The notes beneath the pieces were generated by a model. It had not been told where the DNA came from. It worked only from the letters and a program-made list of their open reading frames with translations, and did not search any database. Positions 5,761 through 43,736 of a stretch of DNA of 64,000 nt are shown piece by piece. The DNA is from Nautilus pompilius (Eukaryota > Mollusca > Cephalopoda > Nautilida > Nautilidae): positions 47,887 through 111,886 of the forward strand of contig JACATO010001177.1 in assembly GCA_018389105.1 (NCBI GenBank). The letters are read 5' to 3'. Position 1 is the first letter of the stretch; each line of letters starts with the position of its first letter. The translations under genes were made by a program, and so were the position numbers.

Positions 5761-5872
5761 AATGTTACGCCCGCGCAATCTCTCGTGGGGGGGGGTTGTT
5801 TTAGTGTCTATGCCGCTGATCCGACACGTGATGTACCCTGAACTACTGCAGACTCGAGTAGAAGTTTCTTCC

Positions 5873-6463
5873 ATTCTCGCCAATTCTCGACCACTCACCC
5901 ATTCTCGCCAATTCTCGACCACTCGACCATTCTTGACCATTCTCGCCCATTCTCGACCACTCACCCATTCTCGCCAATTCTCGACCACTCGACCATTCTC
6001 GCCAATTCTCGACCACTCACCCATTCTCGCCAATTCTTGACCACTCGACCATTCTCGACCAGTCTTGACCACTCGCCAATTCTCGACCACTCACCCATTC
6101 TCGACAATTCTCGACCCCACCCATTCTCGCCAATTCTCGACCATTCTCGCCAATTCTCGACCATTCTCGACCACTCACCCATTCTCGCCAATTCTCGACC
6201 ATTCTTGACCATTCTCGCCCATTCTCGCCAATTCTCGACCATTCTCCCCCATTCTCGACCCCACCCATTCTCGCCAATTCTCGACCATTCTCACCCATTC
6301 TCGACCATTCTTGACCACTCGCCAATTCTCGACCATTCTTGACCACCCGCCCATTCTCGACCATTCTCGCCAATTCTCGACCACTCACCCATTCTCGCCA
6401 ATTCTCGACCATTCTCCCCCATTCTCGACCTCACCCATTCTCGACCACTCACCCATTCTCGCC
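5873..6463. repeat. Minisatellite of ATTCTCGACC / ATTCTCGCCA / ACTCACCC modules
   Basis: About 590 bp are built from 10-bp modules (ATTCTCGACC, ATTCTCGCCA) and an 8-bp module (ACTCACCC or ACTCGACC) in varying order. The commonest composite is a 28-bp unit of all three. Because the array has few stop codons, it opens long frames on both strands (the minus frames read ENWREWxxGRE). These are repeat artefacts. It starts abruptly after gtttcttcc and ends at the GC-rich cgcgcacccgcc. Confidence 0.93.
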
Positions 6464-8577
6464 GCGCACCCGCCAGCCAGCCGGTGAGTTGGATGGGGAG
6501 ACTCAGATGGCGAGGAAAGCCTTTGAGTGCAAAAAACAAAAAAAAAACACAAACAGACAAAGTAGACAAATTAGGTTCACACTGCGAAGAATCTCCGTTT
6601 TGCGTTCGCTATTGTCGTCGTTCATTGCCGGCCGGTACAATGGAACTATTATTTTTAAGTAACTGAGTCGGGAAAGGAATACCAGAAATCTCGATATGGG
6701 CATGCGCTTTCAAATTAATTATGTTGCGGACGGCCACAATGATTTAACTCGCGATTCTAGCCTTTGATCTACGTCGAGAAACCGTGTATCCATTCACGCC
6801 TTATCCTGCAGGAAACTTGAGAGTTTTTCATCGTTCATGCGTAACCGTTATTTGCCTTGAGTAGAATAAATCTCTGAGAGTACTATATACACAATCCATC
6901 TATTGTTTTCTTTTATTCCCTTAGCCTATACTTTACACCGAATACTGTTGCGACAACAGATCTCGTGGAAACCCATCTGAAAGCAGTCAGACATCTGTAG
7001 CTGTGTCCGATTCGCCGATTGGATGCGTGAATCCGGAAGGCAGTTGAGAGACTTTTTTTTTTTTTTTTTTGGAAAACTTAAGTCCGGTGTTGCGGCCGGA
7101 AACAGGTTCACTTCCGACTGGGTATTTTTGGTCACGTGCCGCATGGGCGGGCCATCGAACAACACGACTGTGTCCGGCTCTCAATACAATTATCACCTGT
7201 TCTTCATTGCAAGAGAAAATTGAAATTTGTTTGCTTTCTTAAAAAAATTCATACTAAAATATTTCAATTTAAATTAGTTTTGGCAGTTTTCACTCGTTAG
7301 GATAAGAAAGGAATAGAAGAACCATGTATAATAACACGACTTTGCTCACAATAATTGTCGTCTATATATATATGGACGGCTGTCGGCGAATCCATTGGGC
7401 GGAAGCGTTAATGGCTGTGTTTCGACCAGAGCTGCCATGTGCGCGCGTCACCGCCAATCTGCTGGCTATCGGATCAAAAGATTAACTCGGAAAGAGCAAC
7501 TTCCTTTTGTCGTCTGTATTTAATAACTATAGGTTCAGCTAATCGCCCTCCCTACATGTCTTCGCGTTCCTCCTTCCGGCGCGGCCGTTGGCCCGAGAAG
7601 GAGGGACGAGGTTTGCGTAACTCTTTTATGTCGGAGTTCACCAAGTACGACTGGCTCTCCTGCTTAGTCCGGTCCGTTCCGCGCCCAGGTGCGTCCGAGG
7701 TCGCTTTGGCGGGCGGAAGACTTACGTCGCACATTTCTCGGACCATCCGTCGTTTCCACGCCCCGCTGAAGCCTCCTCGAGCCATAGTTCAGTATACCGA
7801 TCAAACTCGTCAATTCCGTCGCTTATCTTAGTTATCACTGACACCTGAAGTTCATTCCAAAACCAACCCCTCCCCCCCCCGAACTTCGTGTCCCCTAGTG
7901 CGCGCACGTGCATTACCACTTTCTCGGCCCGGGGTACGAACACACCCGAAACTGGGCGACATTCCAAGAAAAGGGGGGCGTGGCCCTGTTGCATTCGGTT
8001 CCTCTCCATATTTTTACAACATTACCAAGTAAATCTAGCGGCATTTAATTTCTTCCACGTGCACGTGTTTGTTTGCTTTTAATTAAAATAGCATAAGACG
8101 TACAACGGCAGGGAATTAGGAAACATTTGTTTCGAATTTGCCTTATAATCCGTTCAGATACTTATGTGGGCCATCTGACGTGATCCTATATCTACCGAAC
8201 ACCGTTGGATTTTGCGTGGCGACCGGGAGTCAGTAGTGAGCTACACGGGCTTCCTTCGAACACCAGTCCGCCGACTCCCGCCCGGGCTGCCTTTTGGACG
8301 GAGAAAGGAATTCCCTTTCGCTATTTATCCCTTTGTCACGCGGTGCGTTGAAACTTATTTATTTTTTTTGAAGTTAGTTCTGAACACGCCCCTGCCCCCC
8401 CCTCACACGCGTCGTTTTCCGGTTGAATAGAATGGTTCACTAGTCCCCTTTGTGTGTCGTACGTGTAGGTGTTCATGCTTGTTTGTTGTACACTATCTGT
8501 AGGTGTTGCTTATATGTCATATCGTGTTGTAATTCTGTGTCCTTTATGTGTGTGTGCGTGTGTGCGTGTGCATATAT
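6464..8577. other. Unique sequence, no gene recognised
   Basis: It contains a T-run at 7053-7070, a GC-rich segment at about 7560-7990 with a C-run near 7871, and several CACGTG words (for example near 7133). The open frames here overlap on opposite strands and match no family I know. Confidence 0.5.
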
Positions 8578-10286
8578 ATGTACGTATGTATGTATGTACG
8601 TATGCATGTATGCATGTACGTATGTATGCATGTACGTATGCATGTACGTATGTATGCATGTACGTATGTATGTATGCATGTACGTATGTATGTATGCATG
8701 TACGTATGTACGTATGTATGTATGTACGTATGCATGTATGCATGTATGTATGTATGCATGTACGTATGCATGTACGTATGTATGCATGTACGTATGTATG
8801 TATGTATGTATGTACGTATGTATGTATGCATGTATGTATGCATGTATGTATGTACGTATGTATGTATGCATGCATGTATGTATGTATGTATGTATGTACG
8901 TATGTATGTACGTATGTACGTATGTATGTATGTACGTATGCATGTATGCATGTATGTATGTATGCATGTACGTATGCATGTACGTATGTATGCATGTACG
9001 TATGTATGTATGTATGTATGTACGTATGTATGTATGCATGTATGTATGCGTATGTATATGTACGTATGTATGTATGCATGCATGTATGTACGTATGCATG
9101 TATGTACGTATGCATGTACGTATGTATGTACGTATGTATGTACGTATGCATGTACGTATGTATGTATGTACATATGCATGTACGTATGTATGTACGTATG
9201 TATGCATGTACGTATGTATGTACGTATGTATGTATGTATGCATGTATGCATGCATGTATATGCATGCATGTACGTATGCATGTACGTACGTATGCATGTA
9301 CGTATGCATGTATGTACGTATGCATGTACGTATGCATGCATGTACGTATGCATGTACGTACGTATGCATGTACGTATGCATGTACGTATGTATGTATGTA
9401 CGTATGTATGTATGTACGTATGCATGTATGTACGTATGTACGTATGTATGTATGTACGTATGTATGTATGTACGTATGCATGCATGTACGTATGTATGTA
9501 TGCATGTACGTATGTATGTATGCATGTACGTATGTACGTATGTATGTATGTACGTATGCATGTATGCATGTATGTATGTATGCATGTACGTATGCATGTA
9601 CGTATGTATGCATGTACGTATGTATGTATGTATGTATGTACGTATGTATGTATGCATGTATGTATGCATGTATGTATGTACGTATGTATGTATGCATGCA
9701 TGTATGTACGTACATGTATGTACGTATGCATGTATGTATGTATGTACGTATGTATGTACGTATGCATGTACGTATGTATGTATGTACATATGCATGTACG
9801 TATGTATGTACGTATGTATGCATGTACGTATGTATGTACGTATGTATGTATGTATGCATGTATGCATGCATGTACGTATGCATGCATGTACGTATGCATG
9901 TACGTACGTATGCATGTACGTATGCATGTATGTACGTATGCATGTACGTATGCATGCATGTACGTATGCATGTACGTACGCATGTATGTACGTATGCATG
10001 TACGTATGTATGTATGTACGTATGTATGTATGTACGTATGCATGTATGTACGTATGTATGTACGTACGTATGTACGTATGTATGTATGTACGTATGCATG
10101 TATGTACGTACGTATGCATGTATGTACGTATGCATGTATGTACGTATGCATGTATGTATGTACGTATGTATGTATGTACGTATGCATGTATGTATGTATG
10201 TATGTATGTATGTATGCATGTATGTATGTATGCACGTTGCATGTATGTATGTATGTATGTACGTACGTACGTATGTATGTATGTAT
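8578..10286. repeat. 1.7-kb tetranucleotide array (TATG/TACG/CATG), with 618-bp higher-order duplication
   Basis: The array is made almost wholly of the tetramers TATG, TACG and CATG, so it alternates pyrimidine and purine throughout. None of the tetramer phases contains a stop on either strand, which explains the roughly 580-630 codon frames (CMYVCMYV on plus, HTYIHTYI on minus) in multiple frames of both strands; none is a gene. The order of variants is not random. The block starting at 8701 recurs at 8909 and 9527. The rare word catatgcatg at 9171 recurs at 9787, and the block at 9301 recurs at 9919. This shows an internal tandem duplication with an offset of 616-618 bp. Confidence 0.96.
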
Positions 10287-15174: not shown

Positions 15175-16461
15175 GTTACGAGGGAAGGCTGAAAAGTTCA
15201 TAGGCTGAACATGATGCAAAAGTCATATTTGATCAGATGTGGTTTATTTTTCAACATAGTCTCCTCTGAGGTCCACACACTTCTTCCATCGGTGTTGTAG
15301 CGCTTGGATTCCCGTGTTATAGAAGCTCTCATCCTGATCCTCAAAAAAGTCCTCAACAGCAGATATGACCTCATCATCGGTCCGATACTGCTTCCCAGCC
15401 AAATGTTTTCTTCATGTTGGGGAACAGAAAATAGTCAGATGGTGCCAAATCAGGAGAATATGGAGGGTGACCAACCAGTTCAAAACCACAGTCACGCACA
15501 GCAGCCATTGCAACCACAGACTTGTGTGCAAGAGAATTGTCCTGGTGAAGCAAGACTTCTTTCGTCAGTTTTCCAGGCCGTTTTGACTCGATTGCTTTTT
15601 GCAGCTGCCTCAATAGGTTGGCATAGTATTCTCCATTGATAGTTTGGCCTTTCTGAAGATAGTCAATGAACACAATGCCCTTTGCATCTCAGAAGACGGA
15701 GGCCATCACCTTTCCTGCTGATGGCGCCACCTTGGCCTTCTTTGGATGGGGGGGGAGATGGGTGTTTCCACTGCATGGAATGCCGTTTGGTCTCTGGCTC
15801 GAAGTGGTGGACCCAACATTCATCTTGGGGGAGGAAACGTTCAAGAAATCCGGTTGGATCCGTTTCAAAAAGTGCCAAGTTTGCCTGCGACATGACCAGC
15901 CTGGCGTGCCTTTGATCAGGCGTCAAAAACCGTGGCACCCACCGAGCGGAAACCTTCGACGTGCCAAGTTCGTTGTGTAAGATGTCCTCGACTCGTTCAC
16001 GGGAGATGCCTACAGCATTAGCTATCTGATTAACAGTTAAACGTCTGTCATCCATCACCATGCGGTGAACACGGTCCATGTTTTCTTGGGTGGTAGCCGT
16101 GGCAGGACGTCCGGACCTTGGGTCATCTTCAAGGCTCTCCCTACCCCTCTTGAATTCAGCCGCCCACTTTTGCACAGTTGATAAAGCAGGAGTATCGTCC
16201 CCTAATGAAGCAACCATGTCGGCATGAATGTCCTTGGGGGGGGGCTAACCCCTTTTTCTGCAGATATTTGATAACACCACGGTGCCAAATTTTATCCATA
16301 TTCTCGAAATGTCTCCAGTACAACTTTTCCCAGTCCTGAATTACTTATCCGATGTGGATTTATCTGGAAGGAAACAATGCAGTTAGTATCAGAAAAGGTT
16401 TAATTTAATGCATGCCCTCCTCCTCAGTCAGCCTATGAGCTTTTCAACTTACCCTCGTAAC
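15175..16461 (-). mobile_element. Mariner transposon with 34-bp terminal inverted repeats
   Basis: The left end (15175-15208, starting gttacgaggg) and the right end (16428-16461, ending accctcgtaac) are inverted repeats matching at 30 of 34 positions. Between them lies a full-length mariner transposase on the minus strand. The total, about 1.29 kb, is normal for mariner. The right end is the first unit of a 15-copy tandem array (16426-17120), so the outer boundary of the original insertion, including its TA duplication, cannot be fixed by eye. Confidence 0.9.
15244..16299 (-). pseudogene. Mariner transposase, full length, broken by 3 frameshifts and a stop
   Basis: The start MDKIWHRGVIKYLQKKGL is at 16299 and the stop TAA at 15244-15246, about 352 codons, the usual size. 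Features in order: N-terminal helix-turn-helix region with VQKWAAEFKRG and EDDPRSGRP; WVPRFLTPDQRHAR linker; first catalytic Asp in QDECWVHHF; second in LLHQDNSLAHKS; third in YSPDLAPSDYFLF. There are 34 residues between the last two Asp, which makes it DD34D. The C-terminus ends ...ALQHRWKKCVDLRGDYVEK. Breaks: a shift in the G8 run near 16235-16242; a shift in the G run near 15749-15756; a TGA in place of Trp in the SVFWDAKGI block near 15690; and one extra A near 15405 (AAGAAAACATTT). All three catalytic Asp codons survive, but the gene is inactive. Confidence 0.92.
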
Positions 16462-17120
16462 TGCTCCCTTTTAGTCAGCCTATGAGCTTTTCAGCCTACC
16501 CTCGTAACTGCTCCCTTTTAGTCAGCCTGAGCTTTTCAGCCCACCCTCGTAACTGCTAAATTTTAGTCAGCCTATGAGCTTTTCAGCCTACCCTCGTAAC
16601 TGCTCCCTTTTAGTCAGCCTATGAGCTTTTCAGCCTACCCTCGTAACTGCTCCCTTTTAGTCAGCCTGAGTTTTTCAGCCCACCCTCGTAACTGCTAAAT
16701 TTTAGTCAGCCTGAGCTTTTCAACCTACCCTCGTAACTGCTCCCTTTTAGTCAGCCTATGAGCTTTTCAGCCTACCAACGTAACTGCTCCCTTTTAGTCA
16801 GCCTATGAGCTTTTCAGCCTACCCTCGTAACTGCTCCCTTTTAGTCAGCCTGAGCTTTTCAGCCCACCCTCGTAACTGCTCCCTTTTGGTCAGCCTATGA
16901 GCTTTTCAGCCCACCCTCGTAACTGCTCCCTTTTGGTCAGCCTATGAGCTTTTCAGCCTACCCTCGTAACTGCTCCCTTTTGGTCAGCCTGAGCTTTTCA
17001 GCCCACCCTCGTAACTGCTCCCTTTTGGTCAGCCTATGAGCTTTTCAGCCCACCCTCGTAACTGCTCCCTTTTGGTCAGCCTATGAGCTTTTCAGCCCAC
17101 CCTCGTAACTGCTCCCTTCT
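16426..17120. repeat. 15-copy tandem array derived from a mariner terminal inverted repeat
   Basis: The unit is 47 bp (agtcagcctatgagctttt...) or 45 bp when 'at' is missing (agtcagcctgagctttt...). There are ten 47-bp and five 45-bp copies, summing to exactly 695 bp. The first 36 bases of each unit are the mariner terminal repeat of the element at 15175-16461; the rest (tgctccctttt or tgctaaatttt) is its flank. Copies follow a long-long-short order (LLS LLS S LLS LLS LL), with 'cctaccc' usually in long and 'cccaccc' in short units. This indicates a trimer of about 139 bp as the amplifying unit. The last five copies start with 'ggtcagcc', which suggests local homogenisation. Confidence 0.95.
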
Positions 17121-20100
17121 AGAATTTTCTTTTTTTTTTCAATTTAAATAAAGCCTTAAGTTTTGTTCTACAGTTTTCCTTATTTTTCGAAACATAAAGT
17201 TTAAATTTCAAGGGTTCTTTTTTTTGTTCTTTGCTCAGTTTAAGGGCTGTACTCCTCTCCCGGAGAAGGGCCGCATACGTCAGTAAAAAAATCCATTGCG
17301 TCCACGAGACCTTCGGTTTGGCAGAGAAAATCCAGTTCCTTGTCTTTAAATTTAAGTGACAAATTTTCTTTGGATGACACATTCTGGTCACATGCTGTCC
17401 CGATCTCAAACTCCAGATACAGGAATCCCTTCTTACCGGTACAGATAAAAGCCTTCCTACATTATCTCCTATTTGGAATTTCCTTAAATCATCTCTAGAT
17501 CTGTTTGTTTTCTTTGCGGAATTCTGCTATTTCTCATCAGTCCGTCTTTTACGTTGGCAATGAGTTAAAGCAGAGTTTTAGGTATTCGCTCAGTCGTATT
17601 GGATGCTGTTTTCTTTTCCCCCCTCTTTGTCAGAAGTTGAACAGGTCGTTCCGTCGATTGTTCGACTTCTAAGGAACGGCTTAATTACCAAGAGGGAAAT
17701 ATCGCCCGGAGGTGGAGCAGTAATTTGTAGGCGATGAAGGGAGAGAAGTTGCGGACAGTCTCTTCTGCTATTATCTTAATTCACAGATCTTTCTATACGA
17801 TGACCCTCGGGGCCATTTCTTTGACTTACGGGTACGGGTATAATGGCACAATTGAAGCGGTGCGCTTGAGAAAGTACTCAAATCACATTTAATAGATATT
17901 AATTGGCTTTGATAAAGCAGCTAATAGACTGTGAAATCCATTAGATCGTCCCCATTTTCAGAAGGGAGGACGGGGGTGGCTCGTTTGGTGGCTTTACTGT
18001 TTTATAATCTAATAGGGGCCGCCAGTGCTATATTATTTCCTGACCTTAACTAGCGCTATGGATAAAAGAAGACCCTGTAAAGCCCTGGTAACACTTAAAG
18101 AGCACAGACAGGCCCCCGACCAGCCAACCGACGCCACGTTCACTGAATCTGTAGCAACTAAACTAGAAACGGCGGGAGGGCGAATGGCTGTGGATGGGAA
18201 GGATCCCGGTCGGGTTCCCATCAGAATCCCGTTGACGTGTCCTCCGCGAAGCAAGCACGGTTTCTTCGCGATCTTCTGTACCGCGCCCGAGTTTCCTCCC
18301 ACCGGCCGAGAGAGGGAGTCGGGGCAGAGGGCTCCGCGGGAAGTCCCTGGCCGGCTAATGCCACTGCTCGCTCCGAGGAACTCTCTTCTCGCGTGATGAC
18401 GGCCGAGACGACTTCCCGTGACCAGCTCCGAGAGAGAGAGAGAGAGAGTGGGGGGGGAGTGAGATCTCGCCGCTATCGTATATAACGATATCTTGGTGCA
18501 TTCCCCTCCCCCCACTAACCACCCAACTTTTAAATGCCGATTACTTTCGGCCGGGCACCGTAGGAAGCAAATACTCCCCTCGCTCGCGTCGAGGCTGCGA
18601 CGCGCTGACTGCATCCAGGATTCGACGATACGACGCCGTTTTCCGCAAATAATTTCCAGATGTCTGAGCCAGATATTGTTTGGACTAGACGGGCGGAAGA
18701 AAACCCCGGAAATGGTTAGACGTGTAACGTGATTTCGGTTGTTGTTGTTGTTGTTGCTCTCACGGCTTCCCCCTCCTCGGCTCCAGCCAGCCGCCATGTT
18801 TCTGTTTGTCTTTGGCTTTAACCCTTGCTCCGGCGTCCGTCGCCTCGAGGACGACGCGGATCAAGTTGCGCAATCAGTCTCGGCGAATCCGTCTGTACGC
18901 GATGACTCCGGTTCAGAAGGGGACAAACGTTCGGTTTAGCGCGTGCAGCAGTAGTTAGGTGCAGACAGAAAAACCATCATGGCGCTTGGCGCGCGTCCGA
19001 GAAGAACAGTCAGCCCCAAACTGATTAACCCCTTCGCCACCAGCCACACTCCACTCCACTCCACCCGTTAGCAGTTTCCGAACGTCCTAACCGCGCCCTG
19101 TTCTCAGCTACCCTTCAGTGAGTGGAGACCCGCAGCATGGTAACAGAGGGACTCCCCCCAGTACTGAAGTTAACAACAGAGGCGTTTCTATCTTGATTTT
19201 ACGCTCGGCTCTGACTGAACACCTCATTAGCCGTTGCGGTCCGTCCTTCTCGTTCGCGACCGACAGATTTCCAGCTAATTCGCCTTTCCGCTGATATCCG
19301 TTTCGCTCCCCTGCCTGATGAGGCGAGACCGAACCCCTTCCCCCCCACCAAAGTAAAGAGACATTTACTAAAGAGGTGATAAAGGTGTCATAGATTTAAA
19401 GAATGCACGTCTGAAATATTCCCAGTGCTTCTCTCTGTAGTAGGTGGCCTAACCGATTCTAAAACAAACCCTTAACTTTCGATTTAGTTATCCCTACATT
19501 GCTACCTTAATTCGGCTTATCCCTGTTCTATATTGTCTGCGTTACGGTTACGTATTAACGACGCTTGCCTAACCCTGCTCCGCATATTTTCCACGTCACT
19601 GCTGAAACCAGTCACGTGACAAGATATATAGTTCTGTGTACAATCAATGAGACAGCAATATTTAAGGATACGGCGTATAGTTAAGTAGACAGAAATGGCG
19701 CTGTCTCATAGTCCGGATTGGTTTCATTCTTCTTAAATATAATATCGACTTATTCGATTTTAATTAACAGAACTGAAGGTTGTCAGTCCTCACGTACGGG
19801 GGTCGTCGCCATCTTGTTCGGGAGTTCTAAACACCGCGCCCTCCGATCCGACCCTTCGAGGGCGCTGCCACGAGGTTGGCAATGGCGACAGCCGGCTTAC
19901 ATGGGAGAATGGTGAAGGTGAGCGCGGACGATTGATTGGGTGCAGATTCACGAACGAACCCCCCCCCCAAAAAAGGGGGGCTTATGTCGCACGTTCAAGC
20001 CCGGAAACCTCCTTTACGGAGATTGCCGAATGGATACAAAATGGCGCCGAAGAACCCCCCCCCCCATAGTTCCACAGCCAACGATGGCTTTTCCGACTGT

Positions 20101-20728: not shown

Positions 20729-22125
20729 GAGTGTGTGAGATAGAAAAGGAGAGTGTGTGATAGAAAGAAAGACTGGAGAGAGAGAGAGAGAGAGAGTGTG
20801 TGTGTGTGTGTGGGGGTGTAATACAAAGATGGAGAGACCGAGGAGTGTGGAGATAGAGATGGAGAGAGAGGAGAGTGTGTGAGGTGTGAGGTGTAAGGTA
20901 GAAAGATGGTGAGGAGACCGAGGAGTGTGAGATAGAGATGGAGAGAGAGAGAGAGAGTGTGTGTGTGTGTGTTAATAGAAAGATGGAGAGACCGAGGAGT
21001 GTGAGATAGAGATGGAGAGAGAGAGAGAGAGTGTGAGTGTGTGTGGTGTAATAGAAAGATGGATGGGAGAGACCGAGGAGTGTGAGATAGGATGGAAGAG
21101 AGAGAGAGAGAGTGAGTGTGTGTGGTGTAATAGAGTGTGTGTGTGGGTTGTGGAGAGACCGAGGAGTGGTGAGATAGAGGGAGAGAGAAGAGAGAGTTGT
21201 GTGTGTGGGTGTGTGTGTGTAATAGAAAGATGGAGACCGAGGAGTGTGGAGATAGAGATGGAGAGAGAGTGAGAGAGAGTGTTGTGGTGTGTGTGTAAAG
21301 AAAGATGGAGAGACCGAGGGAAGTGTGAGATAGAGATGGAGAGAAAGAGAGTGTGAGAGTGTGTGTGATGAAAGAAAGATGAAGAGTGATAGCCAAATGA
21401 TAGAGAGTGTGTGTATGTGGTGAAAGAAAGAGGAGAGACAGAAGAGTGTGCGTGTGATAAGAGAAGAGATGGAGAAAAGGAGAGAGATAGAGAGAAGAGT
21501 GTGTTTGTGTGGTGTGGTGAAAAGAAGAGGAGAGACGGAAGAGTGTGCGTGTGATAGAGAGAGAGAGGTGTGTGTGTGTGCGTGTGTGTGATGGTGAAAG
21601 AAAGAGGAGAGACAGAAGAGTGTGGCGTGTGATAGAGAGAGAGAGAGAGTGTGTGTGTTGTGTGTGTGGTGATAGAAAGAGAGAGCGTTATAGAGAGAGA
21701 GTGGTGTGTGTGTGTGTGTGGTGTTGTGTGTTGTGAAAGAAAGAGGAGACAGAGTGTGTGCGTTGATAGAGAGAGAGAGTGGTGTGTGTGTGTGTGTGGT
21801 GAAAGAAAGAGGAGAGACAGAAGAGTGTGCGCGTGATAGAGAGAGAGAGAGTGTGTGTGTGGTGTGTGGTGTGGTGAAAGAAAGAGGAGAGACGAAGAGT
21901 GTGCGTGTGATAGAGAGAGAGAGAGATGGAGAAAAGGAGAGAGAAGAGAGAGAGTGTGTGTGTGTGATAGAAAGAGAGAGCGTTATAGAGAGAGTGTGTG
22001 TGTGTGGTGTATGTGTGTGTGGTGAAAGAAAGAGGAGAGACAAGAGTGTGCGTGTGATAGAGATGGAGGAAGGAGAGAGAGAGAGAGAGAGTGTGTGTGG
22101 TGTGTGATAGAAAGAGAGAGCGTTA
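20729..22125. repeat. GA/GT minisatellite with two subfamilies
   Basis: About 1.4 kb. From 20760 to about 21360 the unit contains 'gagaccgaggagtgtgagat', then GAGAGA and GTGTGT runs and 'aatagaaagatgg', repeating about every 75-110 bp. From about 21420 to 22110 a related unit, 'gaaagaaagaggagagac' followed by 'agagtgtgcgtgtgatag' and GA/GT runs, takes over. The long minus-strand frames (up to 481 codons, Ser/Leu/His/Thr) are repeat artefacts. Confidence 0.92.
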
Positions 22126-42466: not shown

Positions 42467-43736
42467 GGTATTAAGTTTTTACAAAAGTTTTGTCGTTTTT
42501 TTTCCCCGCAACAATGAGACTTCATATCGTTGCTGAACGTGAAGTTTATTAATCAGAGTAAGTTCCATTACAATTCGTACACTTCTGCCAACGAGTTACA
42601 AGTGCATTTATACCATTTTTAAATAAAATATGGATTTCTAGAGTCGATAAACAGTTGGAAGGCAGTTTCAATTGCTGCTTGGTTGGAGAAGGATTTATAC
42701 AGAGAAAGCTGTCGAGGTGTTTGAAAAGGTGGTAGTCTGTTGGAGAAAGGTCTGGTGAATGGGCTGGGTGAGGGAGAACTTCGTACCCCAACGTGTTCAG
42801 TTTCTGAGGAGTCCCTTTTGCAACATGAGGACGAGCACTGTCCTGGAGCAGGATTGGGCCATTTCGATTCACCGATGCCGGCTGTCGTTTGGAGAGTTTC
42901 TGATGAACAGCTTTTAATTCACGGCAGTGCCTTTCAGCTGTGATGGTTTCTCCAGGTTGCAAGAAGTTATAGTGGATGACACCAGTTGCAGTCCACCAGA
43001 CAGTGACCATGACTTTCTTTGGGTGGATGCTGGGTTTTGGAGTGTGGTTAGACGCCTTGTCTCTGGCTGATTGCTTGCGATTGTCGTAAAGGATCCGTTT
43101 TTCATCACAAGTAATGATTTGGTCAAGAAATGGGTTGTTTTTGTTTCTTATGACAAGCGAAGAGCAGATCTCCAATCAATGATTTTGTTGCTGTTCATTC
43201 AACTCGCGAGGCACCAATTTGTCAAGTTTTCTCACCTGGCCGATCGCGTCAAGATGCCGGGAAGCAGTTTCAGTGCTTACGTCGAGCTCTCCAGCAATTT
43301 CTCGCAGTTTTTCTTGGATCGGCTTCAACTGAGGCCTTCAGACGGTCGTCATCACAGCTGGAAGGACGTCCGCTGTGTTCCTCATCTTCGAGGCTCACAT
43401 CTCCAGATCTAAACTTTGTAAACCATCGTTGTACTATCCGCTCATTTGCTGTCCTCGCCCCATGCTCAGTTAATGTTACGAGTTGCCTCCCTTACTTTGT
43501 GGCCTGGTTTGAGCTCGTGAAGCAAAATGGAACGATATACTTTTGTATCCCCACTCAGAACCATGAAACGAATATCCATTTTATGATTTTTAAAAAGGCA
43601 GGTTTCGCATAATATGCGCCAAAGAACACGCTACAAAACGATATATAATTTATCTACACGCACCTTCACAAGCAGGCAAAAAGTGAACCTCATATTAACG
43701 TAATACAAGAAACCGCCAACACTTTTGTAACTACCT
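42467..43736 (-). mobile_element. Mariner transposon of SETMAR/Hsmar type
   Basis: The left end (ggtattaagtttttacaaaa, continuing gttttgtcg, 42467-42496) and the right end (accgccaacacttttgtaac, then tacc, about 43712-43735) are imperfect inverted repeats. They share ggt-a-t...acaaaagt-ttg-cg-ttt, which resembles the 'ggttggtgcaaaagta' type ends of Hsmar-like mariners. The interior holds a minus-strand transposase. The length, about 1.27 kb, is normal. Confidence 0.8.
42549..43579 (-). pseudogene. Mariner transposase (SETMAR/Hsmar type), broken
   Basis: The start MDIRFMVLSGDTKVYRS is at 43579, followed by the N-terminal HTH region (LKPGHKVREATRNIN), a TGA stop at Lys/Arg of the 'INxAFGE' block, and a frameshift before NERIVQRWFTKFRSGD and SLEDEEHSGRPS. 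A 208-codon open part from 43175 carries the catalytic domain: first Asp in ITCDEKRI, second in LLQDSARPHV, third in HSPDLSPTDYHLF, with 34 residues between the last two (DD34D). KVMVTVWWTATGVIHYNFL is the usual block before D2. The C-terminus CTNCNGTYSD with a stop at 42549 matches the family's CxxCxGxYxx. The N-terminal third is broken, so the gene is inactive, although the catalytic core is nearly clean. Confidence 0.9.

Follow-up and report, generated by a model that had tools for sequence, protein, structure and literature searches.

The window analysed here (the whole 64,000-nucleotide stretch of DNA) contains a decayed copy of a mariner transposon whose right terminal inverted repeat forms the first unit of a tandem array. 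The features of this locus are listed below with their coordinates in the window and strand.

15177..16459, minus strand: mariner (Tc1/mariner) copy, from TA to TA, with its transposase on the minus strand interrupted by frameshifts and stops
15177..15208, minus strand: left terminal inverted repeat with its TA
16416..16417, no strand: site of a 22-bp deletion on the inner side of the right end, where other copies show AAGTTGCATTGCTGTGGCATAA or similar
16417..16427, plus strand: remnant of the mariner's own subterminal stretch, CTCCTCCTCAG, beside the right terminal repeat
16426..16472, plus strand: unit 1 of the array, consisting of the mariner right terminal repeat (16428-16459) and the first spacer (16460-16472)
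16426..17120, plus strand: array of 15 units, with a similarity peak at three units (139 bp)
17108..17122, plus strand: last spacer, ACTGCTCCCTTCT, with AG, continuous with unique DNA and the strongest candidate for what was originally the right flank

Two separate minus-strand frames of the element matched the Pfam families HTH_32 (E 1.3e-8) and Transposase_1 (E 3e-9), and these domains, together with the alignment of a sister copy (L045, see below) with Mos1, identify the HTH and DDE transposase of a mariner. Terminal inverted repeats of about 30 bp with a TA site are likewise present, TA being found at both ends. The left end (15176-15208) matches the 33-base terminal-repeat query with 2 mismatches and is, outside the array, the only match at up to 10 of 33 mismatches on either strand of the window. 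As the window shows no additional terminal repeat at this threshold, we rejected a larger composite element bearing another, outer end. The preliminary description placed the mariner at 15175-16461, which locates the element but includes two bases too many on each side; its proposal that unit 1 is the actual right end of the mariner agrees with the position of the right terminal inverted repeat. The reading frame of this copy is split and its longest stop-free stretch is 193 aa, indicating that it does not encode a working transposase. The 22-bp deletion was recognized by a by-eye comparison with the right ends of L003-L024 and by 22 gap columns in the window copy, and the subterminal remnant beside it is identical in three other copies (L015, L016, and L023). 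A second mariner-type transposase fragment is located at 42552-43175 on the minus strand (Transposase_1, E 2.5e-21), which was the sole Pfam match among 10 long frames of the window; a search of the window against Rfam returned nothing at gathering score.

Fifteen head-to-tail units fill positions 16426-17120 on the plus strand. Ten of them are 47 bp and five are 45 bp in length, giving a total of 695 bp, and they follow one another in the order 47, 47, 45, 47, 47, 45, 45, 47, 47, 45, 47, 47, 45, 47, and 47 bp, with unit borders set by a script that split the array. Tandem Repeats Finder recovered the array at 16426-17122 with a period of 47 and 15.0 copies (92% matches, score 1149), and again with a period of 139 (95% matches, score 1162). 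Both the copy number and the composition of 10 × 47 + 5 × 45 bp given in the preliminary description are therefore exact. A chance origin of a 15-copy array at such identity is ruled out. In each unit, the terminal repeat with its TA accounts for 32 bp, an AG or GG for 2 bp, and a spacer for 13 bp. The five 45-bp units (numbers 3, 6, 7, 10, and 13) lack two bases after GCCT, identically in all five, and the first base is A in units 1-10 and G in units 11-15. The spacer, which lies between TA and the next AG or GG, reads ACTGCTCCCTTTT in 12 of the 15 units; its variants carry AAA for CCC (units 3 and 6) or end in TTCT (unit 15). A spacer had been described before as about 11 bp of flank per unit; its presence stands, but it is 13 bp long, and its origin from the genomic flank is less plain than that wording implies.

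Further tandem repeats are present in the window. A 1.7-kb TATG-type array at 8573-10286 is open in several frames on both strands, an array based on CCATTCTCGA at 5871-6461 shows longer periods of 28 and 56 bp, and 20776-21816 is occupied by arrays rich in AG and GT tracts, with units of 74-134 bp, the majority close to 78 bp.

The genome assembly (727.6 Mb, 2558 contigs) was searched with the element, which returned 71 matching pieces at 35 candidate places; only the best candidates were scored, so that all counts from the assembly are lower bounds. Thirty other copies match the element nearly end to end or over most of its length at 82-94% identity, mostly 89-93%. Against the family majority, the window copy has 44 differences in 1277 compared positions (3.4%), and the other compared copies differ at 2.0-3.5%, where the majority derives from 26 rows besides the window entry, one of them being the window copy again (L025), and omits L047, L048, and L051-L053, which yielded no pair of ends. 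No clearly active copy was seen among the copies compared with this majority. L045 contains an uninterrupted 349-aa transposase frame (1657-2706) that aligns with residues 31-346 of Mos1 (E 4.5e-35), in which the position aligned to what we take to be the third catalytic aspartate of Mos1 is a tyrosine. L004 and L005 have the same flanks and are located approximately 1.1 Mb apart on contig C2074; they probably represent one insertion that was duplicated with its surroundings by segmental duplication.

The mariner right end is prone to repeat-mediated change elsewhere in the genome too. In 25 of 29 other copies the right repeat has kept its length and shows few mismatches, and in the remaining four (L047, L051, L052, and L053) an identical stretch of 16 bp is missing between 8-bp direct repeats (TCAGCCTA) within the right terminal repeat. 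Because these losses sit on three different subterminal backgrounds, the 16-bp deletion probably arose more than once. The CTCC stretch at the right end varies in length among copies, and the right end of L048 has been lost.

The unit consensus of the array is identical to the commonest terminal repeat of the family at 33 of the first 34 positions. The sole difference, GAG for GAA, occurs in all 15 units, including unit 1, and GAA is found in all 25 other copies that keep this segment (four more have lost it). Because this base, which is a single diagnostic position, is common to 15/15 units and absent in 25/25 other copies, comparison of the sequences indicates that the array descends from the right end of the window mariner copy, in agreement with the earlier proposal that it was born from the terminal end of the mariner. 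Unit 1 itself is no longer an exact parent of the other units, later change having set it apart: it departs from the unit consensus at two positions, of which one is also changed in unit 7 alone and the other is private.

A 475-bp array query produced at least 24 matches in the genome, two at its own locus and 22 elsewhere, and a single mariner right end is present at each of the 22 other places, all of which were fetched. No second array was found in the genome with this query in the lower-bound search or among the 56 fetched loci: tandem right ends occur in none of the 29 distinct other copies with a readable right end, and repeated terminal cores were detected in these loci only at the four that cover the window array. 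The table of right ends omits L001, L002, and L055 (window array) and L056 (weak right-flank match), the right-end motif did not fit L025 (the window's own copy) or L048, and one mariner match, at C2010, lies outside the fetched loci. An array widespread without mariner, which would speak against an origin from the transposon end, was thus not seen at this lower-bound sensitivity. Satellite DNA in the strict sense forms long arrays at many loci or in heterochromatic blocks, and the assembly contains one 695-bp array as far as this search reaches. The term satellite used previously is too strong for such a lone locus, which is a single-locus minisatellite.

We consider it probable (roughly 0.7) that the right end of a single decayed mariner gave rise to this local minisatellite through a duplication spanning the flank and later exchanges. 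Insertion at a TA would have left the right terminal repeat between two imperfect direct repeats, the inner one being the element's own subterminal stretch (in its common family form, TAACTCCTCCTTAG) and the outer one the flank TAACTGCTCCCTTCTAG. Slippage, unequal exchange, or microhomology repair could then have joined the AG of the flank to the subterminal AG, which would have duplicated one terminal repeat with a spacer; further exchanges, in part of blocks of about three units, may then have raised the copy number to 15. Such a flank-spanning step implies that the sequence after the TA before insertion was ACTGCTCCCTTCTAGAATT, and that an empty site would read TAACTGCTCCCTTCTAGAATT beside ...GGTTATTAGT, without mariner. 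A genome search with the right flank (17108-18400) identified no empty site and no second full copy of this flank, returning one weak match (75% over 83 query bases). The array starts in the element and ends in unique DNA, the last spacer running on into AGAATTTTC, a layout expected if the duplication spans the outer border of the element.

The proposed seed depends on the resemblance between the spacer and the subterminal stretch. Just inside the right terminal repeat, other copies carry the stretch TAACTCCTCCTTAG, the commonest family form, or close variants of it, and this form and the spacer agree at seven of the first eight bases after the TA. Once mariner and array are masked, the window has 8164 TA sites, and at 8 of them the stretch up to an AG scores against the commonest long family form at least as high as the last spacer does. 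When any of four family forms may be matched, the count is 17 of 5957 TA-to-AG stretches, and with fixed 13-mers it is 11 of 8164. Among 24 right flanks of other copies, the best score is -0.5, whereas the last spacer scores 3.5 and the common spacer 5.0. By these measures the resemblance, which was noticed before testing, is unlikely to be due to chance (1 in 350 to 1 in 1000), and the imperfect direct repeats bracketing the terminal repeat are the likely seed of the array.

The same resemblance could be taken to mean that the unit lies wholly within the mariner, the spacer being a mutated subterminal stretch and the repeated piece being the 46-47 bp between an internal TA and the terminal one; an array built in this way, which we regard as unlikely but worth weighing, would be expected to end in a cut-off unit. 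The spacer ACTGCTCC and the family sequence ACTCCTCC agree at 7/8 bases after the TA and then show TT and AG in the same order, an agreement of 7/8 occurs at only 2 of 8253 TA sites of the window with the array masked, and at 11 of the 22 other genomic places the BLAST alignment extended through the spacer at 86-90% identity (query 33-81 or 356-404 and similar). However, the mariner's own stretch, shortened by the 22-bp deletion that is private to this copy, still stands before unit 1 as CTCCTCCTCAG, unlike the array spacers, and the GCTCCC form is found in none of the 29 other copies. Furthermore, the array finishes in spacer and not in a terminal repeat, at the very AG that a flank-spanning duplication predicts. 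Because the array starts within the element and the last spacer continues into unique DNA, we infer that the spacer is flank and that its resemblance to the subterminal stretch caused the duplication, in preference to a spacer made of mariner DNA.

Later growth of the array has left a pattern among its units. Units three apart are most alike, with a mean of 1.92 differences compared with 2.79-4.00 at lags 1, 2, and 4-11 (2.79 for adjacent units, 3.31 for units two apart). Of 20,000 shuffles of unit order, a fraction of 0.0017 did equally well at lag 3. Lags 6 and 9, which would be expected to gain in a regular trimer pattern, show no excess (3.33 and 4.00), and the three-unit pattern is therefore local. 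Together with the positions of the 45-bp units and the change of the first base after unit 10, this pattern fits exchange of blocks of about three units combined with local homogenization, and small-block exchange is likely.

An origin by nested or repeated insertion, in which transposase added ends serially at TA sites or one mariner entered the right end of another, is highly improbable. A TA bounds each unit at the end of its terminal repeat, as mariner insertion requires; nevertheless, the private base is not expected in two separate insertions, and comparison of the window with L016, an ordinary copy, gave only a 25-base match (E 0.24) on the left of the element and only a 17-base match (E 0.85) beyond the array. 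Insertion of mariner into mariner was rejected on the left-hand comparison. To our knowledge, mariner transposition has no established reaction that inserts 47-bp pieces by one end only. It is harder still to credit that a minisatellite was present first and the mariner inserted beside it. Adjacency is what speaks for such an order, against which each unit is a mariner terminal repeat (at the 33 of 34 positions given above), the array was found only beside the window copy in the lower-bound genome search, and the diagnostic base is also present in unit 1, the element's own end; a pre-existing satellite with later insertion was rejected on this single location and on the private base common to the element's end. 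Misassembly is common in tandem arrays and this one is known from the assembly alone, but the differences between its units are ordered and its 695 bp sit inside a 111,886-bp contig, making it scarcely believable that the copy number or the entire array is an assembly artefact.

Decay and expansion alone explain the data, and no function is indicated. The transposases of Mos1 and Mboumar-9 bind their terminal repeats with an affinity that is unequal between the two ends, according to the available portion of the source (PMC4505599), and by analogy the 15 near-perfect ends of the array might bind transposase, if any is made. A cluster of transposase-binding sites, as suggested in the preliminary description, is a putative role, the transposase frame of this copy being broken. 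It is very improbable that the locus behaves as a mariner with fifteen right ends, serving as a multi-site transposase sink or giving graded excision products and perhaps growing by transposase cuts at successive TAs, one per unit; if it did, any transposase still produced in the genome could bring the left end together with any of the units. A possible model for such a cluster of binding sites is Galileo, whose ends contain tandem repeats with further transposase-binding sites (PMC3688188). There, footprinting covered the nearest site, whose sequence subsequently served to recognize those within the tandem repeats; Galileo belongs to the P superfamily, and its tandem repeats are a normal part of the element, unlike the window array (PMC3688188).

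Tandem repeats derived from transposon ends are a known kind of sequence, to which the window locus belongs at a very early stage. Reviews, in the parts available, list satellites from terminal inverted repeats, including Tetris TIR-220 and Xstir (PMC9659126, PMC4079207). TIR-220 of Drosophila virilis resembles the present case in that its tandem repeats lie within the terminal inverted repeats of a DNA transposon, and its variable copy number and further growth into arrays are described in the excerpted text (PMC4079207). As in repeats of the Tetris kind, the monomer found here is homologous to part of a transposon and the head-to-tail array is attached to its source element. Tetris is, however, a foldback element with 220-bp repeats inside long terminal repeats, for which 610 repeats in 69 contigs and arrays of up to 66 units are reported in the same excerpts (PMC4079207), whereas the window unit is a 32-bp mariner end with a spacer, at one locus and in one copy of the element.

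Other systems share fewer characters with the window array, as far as the excerpts of the cited papers go. Xstir of Xenopus MITEs (Hikosaka and Kawahara 2004) is given a terminal inverted repeat as its source (PMC9659126), although internal MITE sequence is a possible source according to PMC12628747, and forms both with and without an attached element are known (PMC9659126, PMC12628747). Xstir concerns a MITE family in several species, whereas the window array concerns one full-length mariner copy. The Xenopus tropicalis element miDNA4 is a Tc1/mariner MITE carrying a satellite, and hence of the same superfamily (PMC9659126, PMC12628747); growth there is ascribed to short direct repeats flanking the monomer (PMC12628747), but its repeat is internal to the element and was reportedly captured by the MITE, whereas the window repeat is the end of the element (PMC9659126, PMC12628747). 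In Messor ants (Palomeque et al. 2006), mariner and satellite also occur together, with the mariner lying inside the satellite (PMC9659126); the window repeat, by contrast, is built from the mariner end. Among open-access titles and abstract openings, a set with subscription papers mostly outside it, none mentions a mariner terminal repeat that has expanded into an array, and the literature examined showed no monomer made of a mariner end for which both the exact source copy and a candidate seed are given.

The process is already known, and the gain from this locus is an unusually clean, though small, example and not a new principle. It suggests a concrete seed, namely a transposon end lying between chance direct repeats formed by its own subterminal stretch and a similar flank. 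The beginnings of satellites are usually inferred from families that have already spread; in the window, a single locus shows the source element, the copy, the border, and the early growth, and about 30 unexpanded sister copies serve as controls.
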